A stretch of DNA of 40,334 bases. Origin: Candidatus Dormiibacter inghamiae (lineage in GTDB: Bacteria > Chloroflexota > Dormibacteria > Dormibacterales > Dormibacteraceae). Location: contig JAEKNQ010000018.1 of assembly GCA_016464825.1 (NCBI GenBank), positions 1 to 40,334 on the forward strand, given 5' to 3'. The notes beneath the pieces were generated by a model. It made no database searches, was not told the DNA's origin, and worked only from the letters and a program-made list of their open reading frames with translations. Made by a program: the position numbers and the translations under genes. This document shows, one piece after another, positions 4,290-10,782 of the stretch; the first letter of the stretch is position 1, and every line of letters starts with the position of its first letter.

Positions 4290-4582
4290 GACTCCCGCCG
4301 CGCTAGTAGATGGACGTTAGGCCGAAAGGCTGGGTTCATCCCAGCCGGACCTCGGCGCCGGCCAGTGCGAAGTACAAACGGCCGTCCTCCTCAAGAGTTC
4401 GGCACCGAGGGGGGCATCGGTTCAACGCCCACCTGGTGGGGTTTGGAAGGGGAGGCCTGCCTCCCCTTGCCGTTGATCTTGCTGCTCGCTCACTCCCCTG
4501 GACTGTAGCTGCCGCCGAGAGACGAACTTGATCGGCGTGCGACGGTGGATTGAGCGCTGACCGTACCGTTGCGGACGGACAT
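4290..4582. promoter_or_regulatory. Divergent malQ/treX intergenic region
   Basis: This 293-base gap separates the leftward malQ operon from the rightward treX operon and must hold both promoters. I could not identify convincing -35/-10 pairs for either side. The clearest structure is the inverted repeat at 4447-4468, described separately. A TTG codon at 4550 is in frame with treX and is an alternative start that would shorten the gap to 260 bases. Confidence 0.5.
4447..4468. repeat. REP-like inverted repeat, copy 1
   Basis: AAGGGGAGGC at 4447-4456 and GCCTCCCCTT at 4459-4468 are perfect 10-base inverted arms separated by CT. The element lies between two divergent genes, so it is unlikely to be a terminator. 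A closely similar palindrome occurs at 18778-18806, and a degenerate one at about 18697-18720. In all three, a GGTTTG- or TTGGTC-like stretch precedes the AAGGG arm. This suggests a dispersed repeat family. Confidence 0.65.
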
Positions 4583-6688
4583 ATGGAGATCTGGCCCGGA
4601 CAGCCGTACCCGTTGGGGGCGCATTTCGACGGTGTGGGCACCAACTTCTCGATTTTCTCGGAGGTGGCCGAGAAGGTGGAGCTGTGCTTGTTCGACGGAG
4701 CCAGCGGTGAGGAGACTCGCCTGGCTCTGCCCGAGGTCACAGCGCATTGTTGGCACGCCTACGTGCCCAACGTCAGGCCCGGCCATCGCTACGGTTTCCG
4801 CGTGCATGGCCCCTACTCACCTGATCACGGAGTGCGCTGCAATCCCGCCAAGCTCCTCCTCGACCCTTACGCCAAGGCAATCGAGGGTGTCGTGCACTGG
4901 AACGGCACCATCTTCGCCTATGACCAGGGCAACCCCGCTCAGGACCTGGCCTTGGACCCTACCGACAGCGGGCCCTACGTGCCCAAGTCGGTGGTCAGCG
5001 ATCCCTGGTTCAGCTGGGAGGAGGACCGACACCTGCGCATCCCCTGGCACGAGACAGTCATCTACGAGGTGCACGTCAAGGGCTTCACCAAGTTGCATCC
5101 ACAACTTCCGCCCGAACTGCGCGGCACCTACGCCGGACTCGGGACGCCGGAGGCGATCCAGTACCTCCAGAACCTGGGTATCACGGCCGTCGAGCTGCTG
5201 CCCGTGCACCAATTCGTGCACGACAACCGCCTGAACCAGCTCGGGCTGCGCAACTACTGGGGCTACAACTCGATCGGCTACTTCGCGCCCCACAACGAGT
5301 ACAGCTCCAGCGGCCAGAGCGGCCAACAGGTGCAGGAGTTCAAGCAGATGGTGAAGAACCTGCACAGGGCAGGCATCGAGGTGATCCTCGACGTTGTCTA
5401 CAACCACACCGCCGAGGGCAACCACCTGGGTCCGACGCTCTGCTTCCGGGGCATCGACAACGCCGCCTATTACCGGCTCATCGCCGACAACCCGCGCTAC
5501 TGCATGGACTACACGGGCACTGGCAACAGCCTCAACATGCGCCATCCGCACGTGCTGCAGATGATCATGGACAGCCTCCGTTACTGGGTCACCGAGATGC
5601 ACGTCGACGGCTTCCGCTTCGACCTGGCGGCCACCCTGGCGCGCGAGCTGCACGACGTCGACAGGCTGTCGGCCTTCTTCGACCTGGTCCAGCAGGATCC
5701 GATCCTCTCTCAGGTGAAGTTGATAGCGGAGCCCTGGGACGTAGGTGAGGGCGGCTACCAGGTGGGCAACTTCCCTGTGCTCTGGTCGGAATGGAACGGG
5801 AAGTACCGTGACTGCGTGCGCGACTACTGGCGGGGCCAGGCGGCCACGCTGGGCGAGTTCGCCATGCGCTTCACAGGCTCCTCGGACCTCTACCAACTGG
5901 ACGGGCGCCGGCCGTATGCAAGTGTCAACTTCGTCACCTGTCACGACGGCTTCACGCTTGACGACCTCGTGTCCTACAGCTACAAGCACAACGAGGCAAA
6001 CGGCGAGGGCAACCGCGACGGCGAGAGCTACAACCGCTCCTGGAACTGCGGCGAGGAGGGTCCGAGCACCGATCCCGCTGTCAACGCTGTGCGCCAGCGT
6101 CAGAAGCGCAACTTTCTGGCGACCCTCATCTTCTCGCAGGGCGTGCCCATGTTCCTGGGCGGCGACGAGTTCGGCCGCACTCAGGGGGGCAACAACAACG
6201 CCTACTGTCAGGACAACGAGATCAGCTGGTTCGACTGGAGCAAGGTGGATCACGACCTGCTCGCTTTCTGCTCCAAGCTGATCGAGTTTCGCCGGGCGCA
6301 CCCCGTCTTCAGGCGCCGGCGCTGGTTCGCCGGCCGTGAGATCCAAGCCGAGGAGACGAGTGACATCGCCTGGTTCCGACCCGACGGCGGCCGCATGACG
6401 TCCGACGACTGGAATGTGGGCTTTGCCCGCTCGCTGGCCGTCTACCTGAACGGCGACGAGATCGCCAGTCCCGACCTACGCGGCCGCAAGGTGATCGACG
6501 ATTCGTTCTTCCTGCTGTTCAACGCCCACTTCGAGCCCATCCGCTTCTCGCTGCCCCGCGGCTTCGGCCAGCGTTGGAAGCGGGTTCTCGACACGGCTGA
6601 CCCGCTGGTGCGCTACTACCGTGCAGGCGGCCAGGTGCCTGTGCAGGAGCGCTCAGTGGCGGTGTTGATGAGGGTTGACAAGTCCTGA
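4583..6688 (+). CDS. treX: Glycogen debranching enzyme (GH13, isoamylase type)
   Basis: TreX/GlgX removes alpha-1,6 branches from glycogen to give linear maltodextrins for TreY. From the ATG at 4583 the product has 701 residues. It opens with EIWPGQPYPLGA, the normal family start, followed by a CBM48-like domain (about 1-140). The GH13 barrel has the nucleophile D347 in VDGFRFDLA, the acid/base E383 in LIAEPWDVGEGGYQVG and D455 in VTCHDGFTLDDL. An upstream TTG at 4550 would add 11 residues; neither start has a strong ribosome binding site, and I prefer the ATG because homology begins there. The stop overlaps the treY start by four bases. Together with treY and treZ this is the glycogen-to-trehalose pathway; the same protein could be called glgX. 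Confidence 0.92.
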   Translation: MEIWPGQPYPLGAHFDGVGTNFSIFSEVAEKVELCLFDGASGEETRLALPEVTAHCWHAYVPNVRPGHRYGFRVHGPYSPDHGVRCNPAKLLLDPYAKAIEGVVHWNGTIFAYDQGNPAQDLALDPTDSGPYVPKSVVSDPWFSWEEDRHLRIPWHETVIYEVHVKGFTKLHPQLPPELRGTYAGLGTPEAIQYLQNLGITAVELLPVHQFVHDNRLNQLGLRNYWGYNSIGYFAPHNEYSSSGQSGQQVQEFKQMVKNLHRAGIEVILDVVYNHTAEGNHLGPTLCFRGIDNAAYYRLIADNPRYCMDYTGTGNSLNMRHPHVLQMIMDSLRYWVTEMHVDGFRFDLAATLARELHDVDRLSAFFDLVQQDPILSQVKLIAEPWDVGEGGYQVGNFPVLWSEWNGKYRDCVRDYWRGQAATLGEFAMRFTGSSDLYQLDGRRPYASVNFVTCHDGFTLDDLVSYSYKHNEANGEGNRDGESYNRSWNCGEEGPSTDPAVNAVRQRQKRNFLATLIFSQGVPMFLGGDEFGRTQGGNNNAYCQDNEISWFDWSKVDHDLLAFCSKLIEFRRAHPVFRRRRWFAGREIQAEETSDIAWFRPDGGRMTSDDWNVGFARSLAVYLNGDEIASPDLRGRKVIDDSFFLLFNAHFEPIRFSLPRGFGQRWKRVLDTADPLVRYYRAGGQVPVQERSVAVLMRVDKS

Positions 6689-9303
6689 CGCCCCGCTCGA
6701 CCTATCGCATCCAGCTCACACCCGACTTCGGCTTCGACGCTGCGGCCGAGATCGTGCCCTACCTGGCCCGCCTGGCCGTTAGCCACCTCTACTGCTCGCC
6801 CTACCTGCAGGCGCGGGCCGGCAGCCGTGACGGCTACGACGTCGTCGACCACCAGAGCCTGAATCAGGACCTGGGCGGCGAGGCGGCTCACGCCCGCCTC
6901 TGCTCGGCGCTGCGGGAGCACGGCCTGGGCCAGGTGCTGGACCACGTGCCCAACCACATGGCTGTCAACGATCGGCGCAACCGCTGGTGGTGGGACGTGC
7001 TGGAGAACGGACGCTCGAGCCGCTACGCCGCCTACTTCGACCTGTTCTGGGATGCGCCCGAGCGCATGCTGCGGGGTCGGATCCTGCTGCCGGTGCTAGG
7101 TGACCACTATGCCCGGGCGCTGGAATCGGGCCAGCTGCGGCTGGTGCGCCGCGGTTCGCGCGTCAATGTCGCCTACTTTGAGCAGGAGTTCCCGCTCGAT
7201 CCGCGGACCTATGCGCTGGTGCTGCCCGAGGTGCTGACCGGCTTGGGCGCTGAGCTGGCCGCCCTGCCGGACGTGAGGCCAGGCGACCAAGACGGCGCCA
7301 GCTGCCGCCATCGTCTCGCTTCCGCACTGCTGGGACAGCTTGAGCAGCCGGATCTGGCTCTGCTGGTCGACCAGCGCCTCGCCCAGCTGAACGCCGAGGC
7401 GGAGGCTGTCGACGCGCTGCTGGGTCGGCAGCACTACCGGCTGGCCCGCTGGCAGGTGGCCGCCCAAGAGTTGACGTACCGCCGCTTCTTCGATGTGTCA
7501 GAGCTGGCGGCCATCCGCGTCGAAGATCCTGAGGTGTTCGAGCAGACCCACAGGCTGGTCATCGATTGGGTCAACGCAGGTGTCCTCGACGGTTTGCGCA
7601 TCGACCACCCTGACGGCCTGCGCGACCCTAAGGGCTACTTTCAGAAGCTCGCCGCTGAGGCACCTTCGGCCTGGCTCGTGGCCGAGAAGATCCTGGGCCG
7701 ATCAGAGCAGCTGCCAGAGGACTGGCCGGTGGCCGGCACGACAGGCTATGACTTCCTGAACCTCGCCCTAGGCCTCGTCATCGACCCCCAGGGCGAGCCT
7801 GGCCTGAGCGAGGCGTTTCAGCAGTTCACTGGCCTCCGTGAGCCGTACGCCGAGGTGGTCTACAGCCGGAAGCGGCAGGTCATGGAGCAGCTGCTCGGCT
7901 CGGATCTGAACAATCTGCTGCTTCACTTCGAGCGGGTACGCGAGACCGATCGCAGATACCGCGACTACACCAGCCGCGAGCTGAGGGACTGCCTCACCGA
8001 GCTGATCGCCTGCCTGCCGGTGTACCGCACCTATGTGCGGCCGCAAACCGAGGAGCCACCTTCCCTGGCTGACGGAGCAGTCATCGAAGCGGCAGTGGCG
8101 GCAGTGCGACAGCGAAGGCCTGAGCTGGCGCCTGAGCTCCTGGGATTCTTGGGCCGGCTCATCCTCAAAGAAGAGACGCTCAGCGAGGAAGCGGTCGAGC
8201 TGATCGCGCGCTTTCAGCAGACCTCCAGCCCGGTCACCGCGAAGGGCGTGGAGGACACGAGCTTCTATGTCTACAACCGGCTTGTGGCCCTCAACGAGGT
8301 GGGCGGCGATCCCGGCTGGTTCGGCGTTTCTCCGGCCGCCTTTCACGCCGCCTGCGTCCATCGCGCTGAGCGTTGGCCGGCGGCCATGCTTTCGACCAGC
8401 ACTCACGACACCAAGCGGTCGGAGGACGTGCGAGCCCGGCTGGCGCTGCTTTCGGAGCTGCCACTGATCTGGTCCGCTGCCACGGCTCGCTGGTCGGAGC
8501 TCAACGAGCGGCAGCTCAGCCCGGACGGCCCTGACAGGTCGGCCGAGTACCTGCTCTACCAGACGCTGGTCGGCGCCTGGCCGCTGGGCCCTGACCGAGC
8601 CGTGGAGTACATGGTCAAGGCGGCCCGCGAGGCCAAGACCGAGACCTCCTGGATCGCTAACAACCATGGCTACGAGGCCGCGCTGGAGCGCTTCGTCAGG
8701 GGCGTCCTGGCTGATCCGGAGTTCCTGGCCGAGCTGGAGGATTTTGTACAGCCTCTGATCGTGCCCGGCCGGATCAACTCACTGGCCCAAAAGCTGCTCT
8801 GTCTGACAGCGCCGGGAGTGCCTGACTGCTATCAAGGCTGCGAGCTCTGGGATCTGAGCCTGGTGGACCCTGACAACCGTCGTCCAGTGGACTTCGCCAA
8901 GCGGGCTCGGCTACTGGACGAACTGGATGCGATGGGCGACGGCGCGGCAAGCGTGTGGCACGAAAGGGAGGATTCGGGCTTGGCCAAGCTGCTGGTCGTG
9001 ACGCGAGCGCTCCGCCTACGCGAGCGGCAACCAGACATCTTCGCAGCCGGCTACGAGCCGGTGGCGGTCGAGGGTCCCAAAGCGGATCACGCTATCGCTT
9101 TCAAGCGCGGCGACGGTGCAGTCACCGTGATCCCCAGGCTGGTCTGGGGGCTGGCTGGAGATTGGGGGACGGCCACAGCCGCCGCGCTACCCAAGGGCTG
9201 CTGGCGCGATCTGTTCAGCGGTGCCAAACACGCTGGCGGGCTGGTGGCGCTGAAGGAGCTGCTCGGCGCGTTTCCGGTGGCCCTGCTGGAGCGCATCGGC
9301 TGA
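6685..9303 (+). CDS. treY: Maltooligosyl trehalose synthase, probable CTG start
   Basis: TreY isomerises the reducing-end glucose of maltodextrins to give maltooligosyl-trehalose. GH13 landmarks include PYLARLAVSHLYCSPYLQ and DGYDVVDHQ near the N-terminus. The catalytic residues are D307 in GLRIDHPDGLRDPKGY, E334 in WLVAEKILG and D575 in STHDTKRSEDVRAR. The family N-terminus (TPRSTYRIQLTPDFGFD) is encoded from 6688, but this frame has a TGA at 6676-6678 and no ATG, GTG or TTG before it. The only candidate is CTG at 6685, overlapping the treX stop as CTGA, with GAGGG ten bases upstream. Starting at the next GTG (6754) would remove 23 conserved residues including the first barrel strand. The product from CTG is 872 residues. 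The function is secure and the CTG start likely. Confidence 0.88.
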   Translation: MTPRSTYRIQLTPDFGFDAAAEIVPYLARLAVSHLYCSPYLQARAGSRDGYDVVDHQSLNQDLGGEAAHARLCSALREHGLGQVLDHVPNHMAVNDRRNRWWWDVLENGRSSRYAAYFDLFWDAPERMLRGRILLPVLGDHYARALESGQLRLVRRGSRVNVAYFEQEFPLDPRTYALVLPEVLTGLGAELAALPDVRPGDQDGASCRHRLASALLGQLEQPDLALLVDQRLAQLNAEAEAVDALLGRQHYRLARWQVAAQELTYRRFFDVSELAAIRVEDPEVFEQTHRLVIDWVNAGVLDGLRIDHPDGLRDPKGYFQKLAAEAPSAWLVAEKILGRSEQLPEDWPVAGTTGYDFLNLALGLVIDPQGEPGLSEAFQQFTGLREPYAEVVYSRKRQVMEQLLGSDLNNLLLHFERVRETDRRYRDYTSRELRDCLTELIACLPVYRTYVRPQTEEPPSLADGAVIEAAVAAVRQRRPELAPELLGFLGRLILKEETLSEEAVELIARFQQTSSPVTAKGVEDTSFYVYNRLVALNEVGGDPGWFGVSPAAFHAACVHRAERWPAAMLSTSTHDTKRSEDVRARLALLSELPLIWSAATARWSELNERQLSPDGPDRSAEYLLYQTLVGAWPLGPDRAVEYMVKAAREAKTETSWIANNHGYEAALERFVRGVLADPEFLAELEDFVQPLIVPGRINSLAQKLLCLTAPGVPDCYQGCELWDLSLVDPDNRRPVDFAKRARLLDELDAMGDGAASVWHEREDSGLAKLLVVTRALRLRERQPDIFAAGYEPVAVEGPKADHAIAFKRGDGAVTVIPRLVWGLAGDWGTATAAALPKGCWRDLFSGAKHAGGLVALKELLGAFPVALLERIG

Positions 9304-10782
9304 GCGCAACCTTTCAAGTCTGGGCACCCAGGCCGGAGCGCGTCGAGCTGTGGTTGGAGGGCCGGCGCCTGCCCCTGGAGCGGAAGCCGGAAGGCTGGTG
9401 GAGCTCAACTGTCATCGCTCGGCCGGGGCAGGTCCATGGATTCGTACTGGACGGTGCCGAGCCACTGCCTGATCCGCGCTCGCGCTGGCAGCCACATGGC
9501 GTCCACGGTCTGTCCTGGGTGGACGCTCCGGCGGCCTATGGCTGGTCGGACGCTGATTGGCGAGGCCTGGGTCTCAGCGAAGCAGTGATCTACGAGCTGC
9601 ATACCGGCACCTTCACCGAAGCCGGCACTCTCGAGGGGATCATCGAGAAGCTGCCCCACCTGCTCGGCCTGGGCGTGAACTGCCTGGAGCTGATGCCGGT
9701 GGTGGAGTTTGCGGGTGAGCGAGGCTGGGGTTACGACGGCGTAGACCTGTACGCCCCGCACCACGCGTACGGCGGACCGGAGGCCCTGCGGCGGCTGGTC
9801 GACGCCTGCCATCAGCACGGGTTGGCTGTGGTGCTGGACGTTGTCTACAACCACCTCGGCCCCGAGGGCAACTATCTCGGCAGGTACGGGACTTACTTCA
9901 CGTCGCGTCACCAAACGGGGGGTGCGCGATTTCGTCATCGACAACGCGCTGATATGGCTCCGCGACTACCACGTTGACGGGCTGCGCCTGGACGCGGTGG
10001 GCGCCATCCTCGACTCGTCGGAGCGTCACATTCTGACCGAGCTGGCGGACCGCGTGCATGAGCTGGGCCGGGAGCTCGGCAGGTCGCTCTCCCTCATCGG
10101 CGAGCAGCCCTTCATCGACCCGCCGCTGCTGGCGCTCGGGCTGGATGCCCAGTGGGAAGACGACGTCCATCACTCCCTCCACGTCCATTTCACGGCCGAG
10201 CGCCAGGGTTACTACGCGCCTTACACCGGCAGCCCAGAAGAGCTGGCGGGCCTTTTGCTTGCCCCGCGAGAGCTGGGCGTGCTCTACGAGCGGGTCCTGA
10301 CCTATTCGCAGACCCACGACCAGGTCGGGAATCGAGCCCAGGGTGAGCGCCTCTGTCATCTGGCTTCGCCGCAGCAGTGCCGTTCAGCGGCCGCCCTGAC
10401 TCTGCTCTCGCCCTACGTGCCCATGCTCTTCATGAGTGAGGAATGGGCGGCGTCCACTCCGTTCCAATTCTTCAGCGACCACCGCGATCCGACGATTGCT
10501 CGGCTCGCAACGGAAGGACGGGTGAGGGAGTTCGCCGGCTTCGGCTGGCGGCGGGAGGAGGTGTCCGACCCCCAGGATCCGGCGACTTATCGGCGCTCCA
10601 AGCTCAACTGGTCTGAGCTGGACGCTCCGCCACACCGGGCCATGCTGGCCCACTACAGATCCCTGCTGGCCCAACGCCGCTCACTGCAAGGTCAGCCCTA
10701 CCAGGTGGGCTGGACCGACCAGCCGGCGGCGATCACTTTCAGCCGCGGCAGGCGGCACTGGAGCTGTCCCCTCGACAGTTAG
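9300..10782 (+). pseudogene. treZ: Maltooligosyl trehalose trehalohydrolase, internally deleted and frameshifted
   Basis: TreZ releases free trehalose from maltooligosyl-trehalose. The first frame starts at CTG 9300, overlapping the treY stop as CTGA, with GGAG eight bases upstream. It encodes the E-set domain (TFQVWAPRPERVELWLEG) and early barrel strands (AVIYELHTGTFTEAGT, DVVYNHLGPEGNYLG). After YFT at 9894-9902 the reading must jump to the next frame, where VRDFVIDNALIWLRDYHVDG resumes near 9922. The conserved loop normally found here (TPWG, then N-x-DG and S-x-x-VR) is missing, so about 14 residues seem lost, roughly 41 bases, which also explains the frame change. Catalytic motifs survive downstream: VDGLRLDAV, LIGEQP and SQTHDQVGNRAQGER. 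The C-terminus is also short. It may be a true lesion or an assembly collapse. I place it as a broken treZ with high confidence in family. Confidence 0.85.

Follow-up and report, generated by a model that had tools for sequence, protein, structure and literature searches.

Predicted CTG starts of treY and treZ

The window analysed here, a stretch of 40,334 bases from Candidatus Dormiibacter inghamiae (contig JAEKNQ010000018.1), carries treX, treY and treZ consecutively at about 4583 to 10782, and comparison of sequences indicates that treY and treZ very likely start at CTG as part of a habit of the lineage. We hold with considerable confidence that CTG is used as a regular minor start codon in Candidatus Dormiibacter, treY and treZ being two of about ten such genes, and the same most likely applies to the family. 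As judged from profile extents, the CTGs stand at the beginning of the protein families, and in the alignments the CTG position alternates with GTG, TTG or ATG in related genera for folC and with GTG or TTG for treZ. The source genome of the window (G000) is a 64-contig draft of 3.09 Mb, 92.5% complete, in which the window is contig C5. The closest named relative is the congener Candidatus Dormiibacter spiritus (G001; contig QHBT01000029.1, locus L032 = G001:C26), whose TreY is 87% identical. NCBI places the genus in the family Candidatus Dormibacteraceae, which probably corresponds to the family group counted here. ATG, GTG and TTG are referred to below as usual starts.

A preliminary description of this DNA had proposed that CTG 6685 and CTG 9300 each share the TGA of the preceding gene's stop, and the coordinates proved exact. 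The in-frame TGA that it placed nine bases upstream of the treY CTG is present, with only a CAA and a GTC codon, and no usual start, in between. For treZ, no usual start lies near the start of homology, as had been stated; the nearest in the window are a GTG within treY, 46 codons up, and TTG 9354, 18 codons downstream. Both CTGA sites were identical base for base in Ca. Dormiibacter spiritus, where the DNA is about 90% identical in the alignment of the window with L032. ATGA or GTGA at these junctions in relatives had been named as the sign of a base error; the closest relative has CTGA, so this sign is absent. That the CTGs are misread GTG or ATG codons of a single metagenome assembly would suit a window that comes from a 64-contig draft and whose treZ shows a 41-base gap against the congener, but we reject this as extremely remote, because both CTGs are kept in the assembly of a second species, and the same pattern is met in many genomes and genes.

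The N-terminus of TreY was aligned for 107 of 112 sequences (111 loci and the window, duplicates included). A usual start was lacking from the upstream open frame in four of the 107 rows, which represent two species after deduplication, namely the source of the window and its congener, and both carry CTG at position -1. In the congener (L032), the TGA upstream of treY is CGA, and the resulting open frame of 109 codons contains no ATG, GTG or TTG. The treZ frame of the congener (L133) closes 16 codons upstream without a usual start, and that of the window stays open into treY and takes in the GTG 46 codons up. Because the treY frame is closed in the window and the treZ frame is closed in the congener, each gene is forced to CTG in one of the two species. 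Among 117 aligned treZ sequences, shown once per distinct context, one locus besides the congener (L146 of genome G007) lacks a usual upstream start; its TTG overlaps the treY stop as TTGA, one codon inside the match. The treY/treZ junction of L137 (genome G014) reads GTGA, with a second GTG three codons on. The earlier claim that treY and treZ start at CTG is well supported by conservation in the congener, by profile extent and by the treY/treZ junctions of two other genera, which read GTGA and TTGA.

The TreY protein matched TIGR02401 at residues 3-869 (profile positions 1-837) with 930 bits, against a cut-off of 499. If the CTGs were internal leucine codons, translation would start at the next usual codon (GTG 6754 in treY, TTG 9354 in treZ) and yield slightly shorter proteins. 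These later in-frame codons do exist, gene callers limited to ATG, GTG and TTG would pick them, and one CTGA candidate, L125, is of the internal-codon type. However, a later start would cost conserved homology, amounting to about 100 residues in FolC (PRK10846), 72 in the cysteine desulfurase-like protein (TIGR03402) and 21 in TreY, where TIGR02401 homology begins that far before GTG 6754, the alternative start named in the preliminary description. In relatives, moreover, the very position of the CTG is taken by GTG, TTG or ATG, and we consider internal leucine codons very unlikely.

Other genes whose family homology starts at CTG

The G000 sample comprised 1,050,168 bases (34% of the genome) and 868 genes from a simple gene caller; the sample of the congener was smaller (304,922 bases). 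NTGA overlaps were counted as isolated when usual starts were absent from the 30 codons upstream and from the first 7 codons downstream, and the same geometry with TAA or TAG instead of TGA served as the chance control. All 16 CTGA proteins of G000 were compared with Pfam and 15 of them with NCBIfam, treZ being represented by its congener copy.

Nine genes of the G000 sample have family homology that starts at CTG and ahead of any usual start: treY, treZ, folC, a cysteine desulfurase-like gene, a HAD phosphatase, an OppDF-like ABC gene, a glycosyltransferase, a PfkB kinase and an inositol phosphatase (Table 1). The profiles start 2-7 residues after the CTG in all nine (treZ through the congener copy) and in fmt of G001; fmt lies outside the 34% sample and shows the same pattern. 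Seven of the nine came from the CTGA list (treY, treZ, glycosyltransferase L131, HAD L162:8491, OppDF-like L170, folC L179 and desulfurase-like L219:16316). The PfkB kinase (L209) and the inositol monophosphatase (L180), neither of which is in that list, were added with profile support by a second scan. The share of CTG starts is thus at least 9 of 868 called genes, about 1%. The CTG starts put forward in the preliminary description thus stood, and they are not peculiar to the trehalose operon, seven other sampled genes and fmt being alike.

This second scan, which looked for genes with coding signal starting far ahead of the first usual codon, returned 8 of 630 in G000, five of which were family-supported (folC, desulfurase, HAD, PfkB and inositol phosphatase) and three antisense or spurious-looking. 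Elsewhere it gave 3 of 183 (G001), 3 of 67 (G014), 0 of 102 (G011), 1 of 135 (G006) and 17 of 111 (G039); because many of those hits are spurious by eye, the scan is unfit for comparing genomes.

CTG was kept in both Dormiibacter species at all 8 sites compared, those of treY, treZ, folC, fmt, the HAD, desulfurase-like and glycosyltransferase genes and a FadD-like gene (L214/L184). The upstream open frame contains no usual start in either species for folC, HAD and glycosyltransferase (the last by eye in the congener); in G001 this holds for fmt as well, and the desulfurase-like gene there has a usual start 74 codons up. For the OppDF-like gene, no clear ortholog was found in G001, the best match being 55% over half of the protein. 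Three of the five CTGA cases of G001 were homology-supported (treY with the profile through the window copy, treZ and fmt), and two were not decided by profiles. The CTGA case of G014 is an inositol monophosphatase, matched by PRK12676 from residue 4, and that of G011 was not decided by profiles.

folC and fmt across the class

folC was matched in 38 of 41 genomes, and the best 30 loci were taken, 24 of them in the family. Codon -1 was CTG in 9, a usual start in 17 and another codon in 4 of the 30 loci; within the family the counts were 9, 13 and 2. Seven folC loci had no usual upstream start, and CTG stood at -1 in six of these and at -2 in one. fmt was matched in all 41 genomes, and the best 30 loci comprised 21 in the family and 9 in other families. 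At the fmt start position, the family loci had CTG in 17, ATG in 1 and, in three members of genus g8, a codon that is neither CTG nor a usual start, and the loci of other families had a usual start in 8 and CTG in 1. In nine of the 17 family CTG loci, the open frame upstream was free of usual starts throughout. The next usual fmt start lay 12 codons on in most loci and at least 25 in both Dormiibacter species. As CTG makes up 6.1% of codons in the G000 genome, its recurrence at the same position is, on this sequence comparison, not chance, though related genomes are not independent. The g8 loci read TTC in L350 (G018), TAC in L352 (G008) and TTC in L360 (G023), and two of the three lack a usual upstream start; translation there might start at an ATC two codons on.

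In many family fmt loci a TAG or TAA, probably the stop of def, lies a few codons ahead of the CTG and does not overlap it, and in G015 and G017 the CTG lies in a short closed frame of 5 and 3 codons including the stop. Re-initiation at overlaps therefore cannot be the whole story. The same loci bear on a -1 frameshift that would fuse TreX to TreY and TreY to TreZ and leave a start codon unneeded. The downstream gene does lie in the -1 frame at every NTGA overlap, but this frame relation is shared by ATGA and GTGA, which are the most frequent isolated overlaps here, no slippery heptamer was seen by eye at either junction, and the fmt CTG of several relatives stands after the likely def stop in a short closed frame. 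Such fusion is highly improbable.

Initiation at another near-cognate codon beside the CTG, such as ACG 6688 in treY, was also considered. It draws on infC, where by eye G000, G001 and G012 (L372, L373 and L374) have an ATC in place and neither a usual start nor CTG before the homology, so that other codons may start. However, the CTG is constant, whereas the next codon differs from case to case (ACG in treY; AGC in treZ and in the fmt of Dormiibacter; ACC, ACG or AGC in folC), and the alternation with GTG, TTG and ATG occurs at the CTG position. We give this explanation a very slight probability and keep to initiation at the CTG itself.

Overlap counts and points against the reading

Several results weigh against CTG as a regular start codon. 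The isolated overlaps of G000 numbered 84 (ATGA 31, GTGA 28, TTGA 9 and CTGA 16), with 9 in the TAA/TAG control. C precedes TGA in 55% of the TGA-ending genes of G000, and when the 9 controls (329 TAA/TAG genes) are scaled to 539 TGA genes with 55% C, about 8 CTGA overlaps are expected by chance vs the 16 seen. In G001, CTGA accounted for 5 of 27 isolated overlaps vs 5 controls, and in four other Dormibacteria genomes for 3 of 36 (G014 1/5, G011 1/12, G006 0/12 and G039 1/7). The CTGA count alone is only about twice chance and proves little, and the case rests on homology; as sole proof the count was rejected, the TAA/TAG control predicting about half of it. The homology has limits of its own. 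Among the 16 CTGA cases of G000, 7 were homology-supported, L125 was refuted as a CTG start because its MerR domain begins beside the first usual start, and 8 were not decided by profiles, although the PrmC-like L127 and the lipoate ligase-like L219:481 among these lean to CTG. The curated cut-off was passed by TIGR02401, TIGR02402, TIGR00099 and TIGR00460 alone, the other profiles showing family and not exact function. Eight shared wobble C's by themselves are unsurprising in genomes so close, and the OppDF, PfkB and inositol phosphatase genes lie outside the congener comparison. The treZ of the window is broken about 610 bases in, where 41 bases of the congener are absent at about 9915 and the rest continues in another frame. 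At the three g8 fmt loci, some other start must occur.

The initiation machinery and published measurements point the same way. The initiator tRNA of G000 and G001 reads TCGGG-CTCATAA-CCCGA, with its three anticodon-stem G-C pairs intact. IF3 of G000 is ordinary-looking, residues 3-166 of 167 aligning with solved IF3 chains in a comparison over the whole length. At this level of comparison, neither component shows a change that would account for the tolerance of CTG. A CUG output of 0.86% of that of AUG has been reported (PMC11497404), and in a mycobacterial selection CTG was not enriched, at 0.03% (PMC4633059).

The outside controls comprised 78 loci of other lineages (829,083 bases, 472 called genes), the Dormibacteria rows L032 and L033 being excluded. 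Isolated overlaps there were ATGA 11, GTGA 5, TTGA 0 and CTGA 1, with 7 in the TAA/TAG control. Plasmid pieces of 150 kb each gave one CTGA and one TTGA in Azospirillum (control 5) and one ATGA and one CTGA in Chelatococcus (control 6). The three CTGA cases look like false calls by eye, and the numbers are too small for a test. In the window itself, the usual overlaps that had been cited for comparison are real (GTGA 32007, ATGA 32609 and ATGA 34910). The Shine-Dalgarno-like GAGGG and GGAG reported upstream of the two CTGs are likewise present, but their evidential weight is low, a match of at least 4 bases to the anti-Shine-Dalgarno complement occurring in 42% of random pieces from the same upstream regions. 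Shine-Dalgarno strength did not separate the classes, such a match being found in 11 of 16 CTGA, 17 of 31 ATGA and 17 of 28 GTGA overlaps.

Proposed mechanism and initiation components

Under the proposed mechanism, the initiator fMet-tRNA would read CUG by a first-position mismatch, as with GUG and UUG, and the protein would begin with methionine. At CTGA overlaps, the ribosome finishing the upstream protein would restart on the CUG, and stop-to-start re-initiation fits the sequence of these overlaps. At loci without overlap, such as fmt in most relatives, initiation would proceed as at any start codon. The likely origin is wobble drift, in which a change of the last base in the upstream gene would turn GTGA, TTGA or ATGA into CTGA; such drift is likely because 55% of TGA genes have C before the TGA, and the resulting CTGA would evidently be tolerated by the lineage.

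The initiator tRNAs of both Dormiibacter species (L296 119-191 and L298 117-189) seemingly have no CCA end in the gene, in contrast to several relatives, and their D-loop looks short against what we take to be the usual form. A stricter initiator tRNA pattern gave no match in 26 genomes. An M1-like initiator tRNA with C30-G40 was ruled out by sequence, G30-C40 being present; the C30-G40 type lowers discrimination against CUG in vitro (PMC11497404). The infC of G046 (L375) has an ACG after AAGGAGG and no ATG, GTG or TTG before the homology. Weak starts besides CTG may be in use in these genomes.

Features of the trehalose locus and profile matches

The likely treX start, judged from the protein, is ATG 4583 and not TTG 4550. 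Either damage to the gene or a fault of assembly underlies the gap and frame change of treZ at window positions 9900-9930 relative to L032. The window has a third overlap of the CTGA type, at 544 on the minus strand, but a usual start seven codons on leaves that case ambiguous.

Table 1. Features of the treX-treY-treZ locus in the window, and family profiles of genes with predicted CTG starts (residues counted from the CTG)
Feature	Coordinates	Strand	Profile and first matching residue	First usual start (residue)	Remarks
treX-like glycogen debranching gene	4583..6688	+			listed open reading frame 4550-6688 opens at TTG 4550; start and name judged from the protein
GAGGG, Shine-Dalgarno-like	6670..6674	+			10 bases before treY CTG; read in sequence; weak evidence
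TGA closing the treY frame upstream	6676..6678	+			in frame; read in sequence
CTG, predicted treY start	6685..6687	+			overlaps treX stop TGA 6686-6688 (CTGA); sequence, congener alignment, N-terminus alignment, profile
treY, malto-oligosyltrehalose synthase	6685..9303	+	TIGR02401 from 3	24	872 residues from CTG
GTG, first usual start in treY frame	6754..6756	+			rejected as start; open reading frame list, profile extent
GGAG, Shine-Dalgarno-like	9288..9291	+			8 bases before treZ CTG; read in sequence; weak evidence
CTG, predicted treZ start	9300..9302	+			overlaps treY stop TGA 9301-9303 (CTGA); sequence, congener alignment, relatives
treZ, first part	9300..9914	+			frame of CTG; congener alignment
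treZ, second part	9915..10782	+			other frame, after 41-base gap vs congener
treZ, congener copy			TIGR02402, residues 4-477 vs profile 2-499	19	
HAD phosphatase			TIGR00099 from 6	38	
Cysteine desulfurase-like			TIGR03402 from 4	76	
OppDF-like ABC gene			PRK11022 OppD from 6	26	
Glycosyltransferase			TIGR04047 from 8	23	
folC			PRK10846 from 7	109	
fmt of G001			TIGR00460 from 3	27	
PfkB kinase			PRK09434 from 3	34	
Inositol phosphatase			PRK12676 from 4	23	

Relation to known systems and significance

Annotations tend to omit CTG starts. The published CUG share of 0.024% of bacterial starts (PMC11497404) is annotation-based, and because CTG tends to be left out in this way, the true contrast with the at least 9 of 868 genes (about 1%) in the G000 sample is smaller than the figures suggest. 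The likeness to known bacterial CUG starts lies in the fourth NUG codon and in the first-position mismatch with the initiator tRNA. The overlaps resemble ATGA-type four-base overlaps with termination-reinitiation (Huber 2019, PMC6728339) in sharing the TGA between stop and start, with translation likely coupled. They differ in that the overlapping start here is CTG, and CTG starts of the Dormiibacter family also occur without overlap. That paper names ATGA/AUGA and TGATG; CTGA, GTGA and TTGA were not found in its main text. The available parts of the literature linking this lineage with start codons or translation initiation do not mention CTG starts in it. Both the codon and this geometry of overlap are already known, and regular, conserved CTG use in one lineage was not seen in the literature searched.

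The non-standard infC start offers a further likeness, both cases being a translation-factor gene with a weak start (infC with ATC in G000, G001 and G012; fmt with CTG). A feedback loop acting through infC is known from E. coli; for fmt such a loop is only a thought. A broader proposal, which we rate as doubtful, is that CTG would be the family's fourth working start codon, used by about 1 in 100 genes or more, essential ones included, through changed discrimination by the ribosome or its factors, and that the fmt CTG, kept across most of the family in the gene that formylates initiator tRNA, would sense initiation and feed back on it, much as the weak infC start does.

Gene callers that accept ATG, GTG and TTG alone would cut or mis-start such proteins, so that N-terminal errors may go unnoticed in the annotated genomes of these lineages. 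According to PMC11497404, it is unclear why GUG and UUG serve as bacterial start codons and CUG almost never does. The use of CUG where relatives use GUG, UUG or AUG amounts to a natural experiment, which makes the question of CUG avoidance testable.

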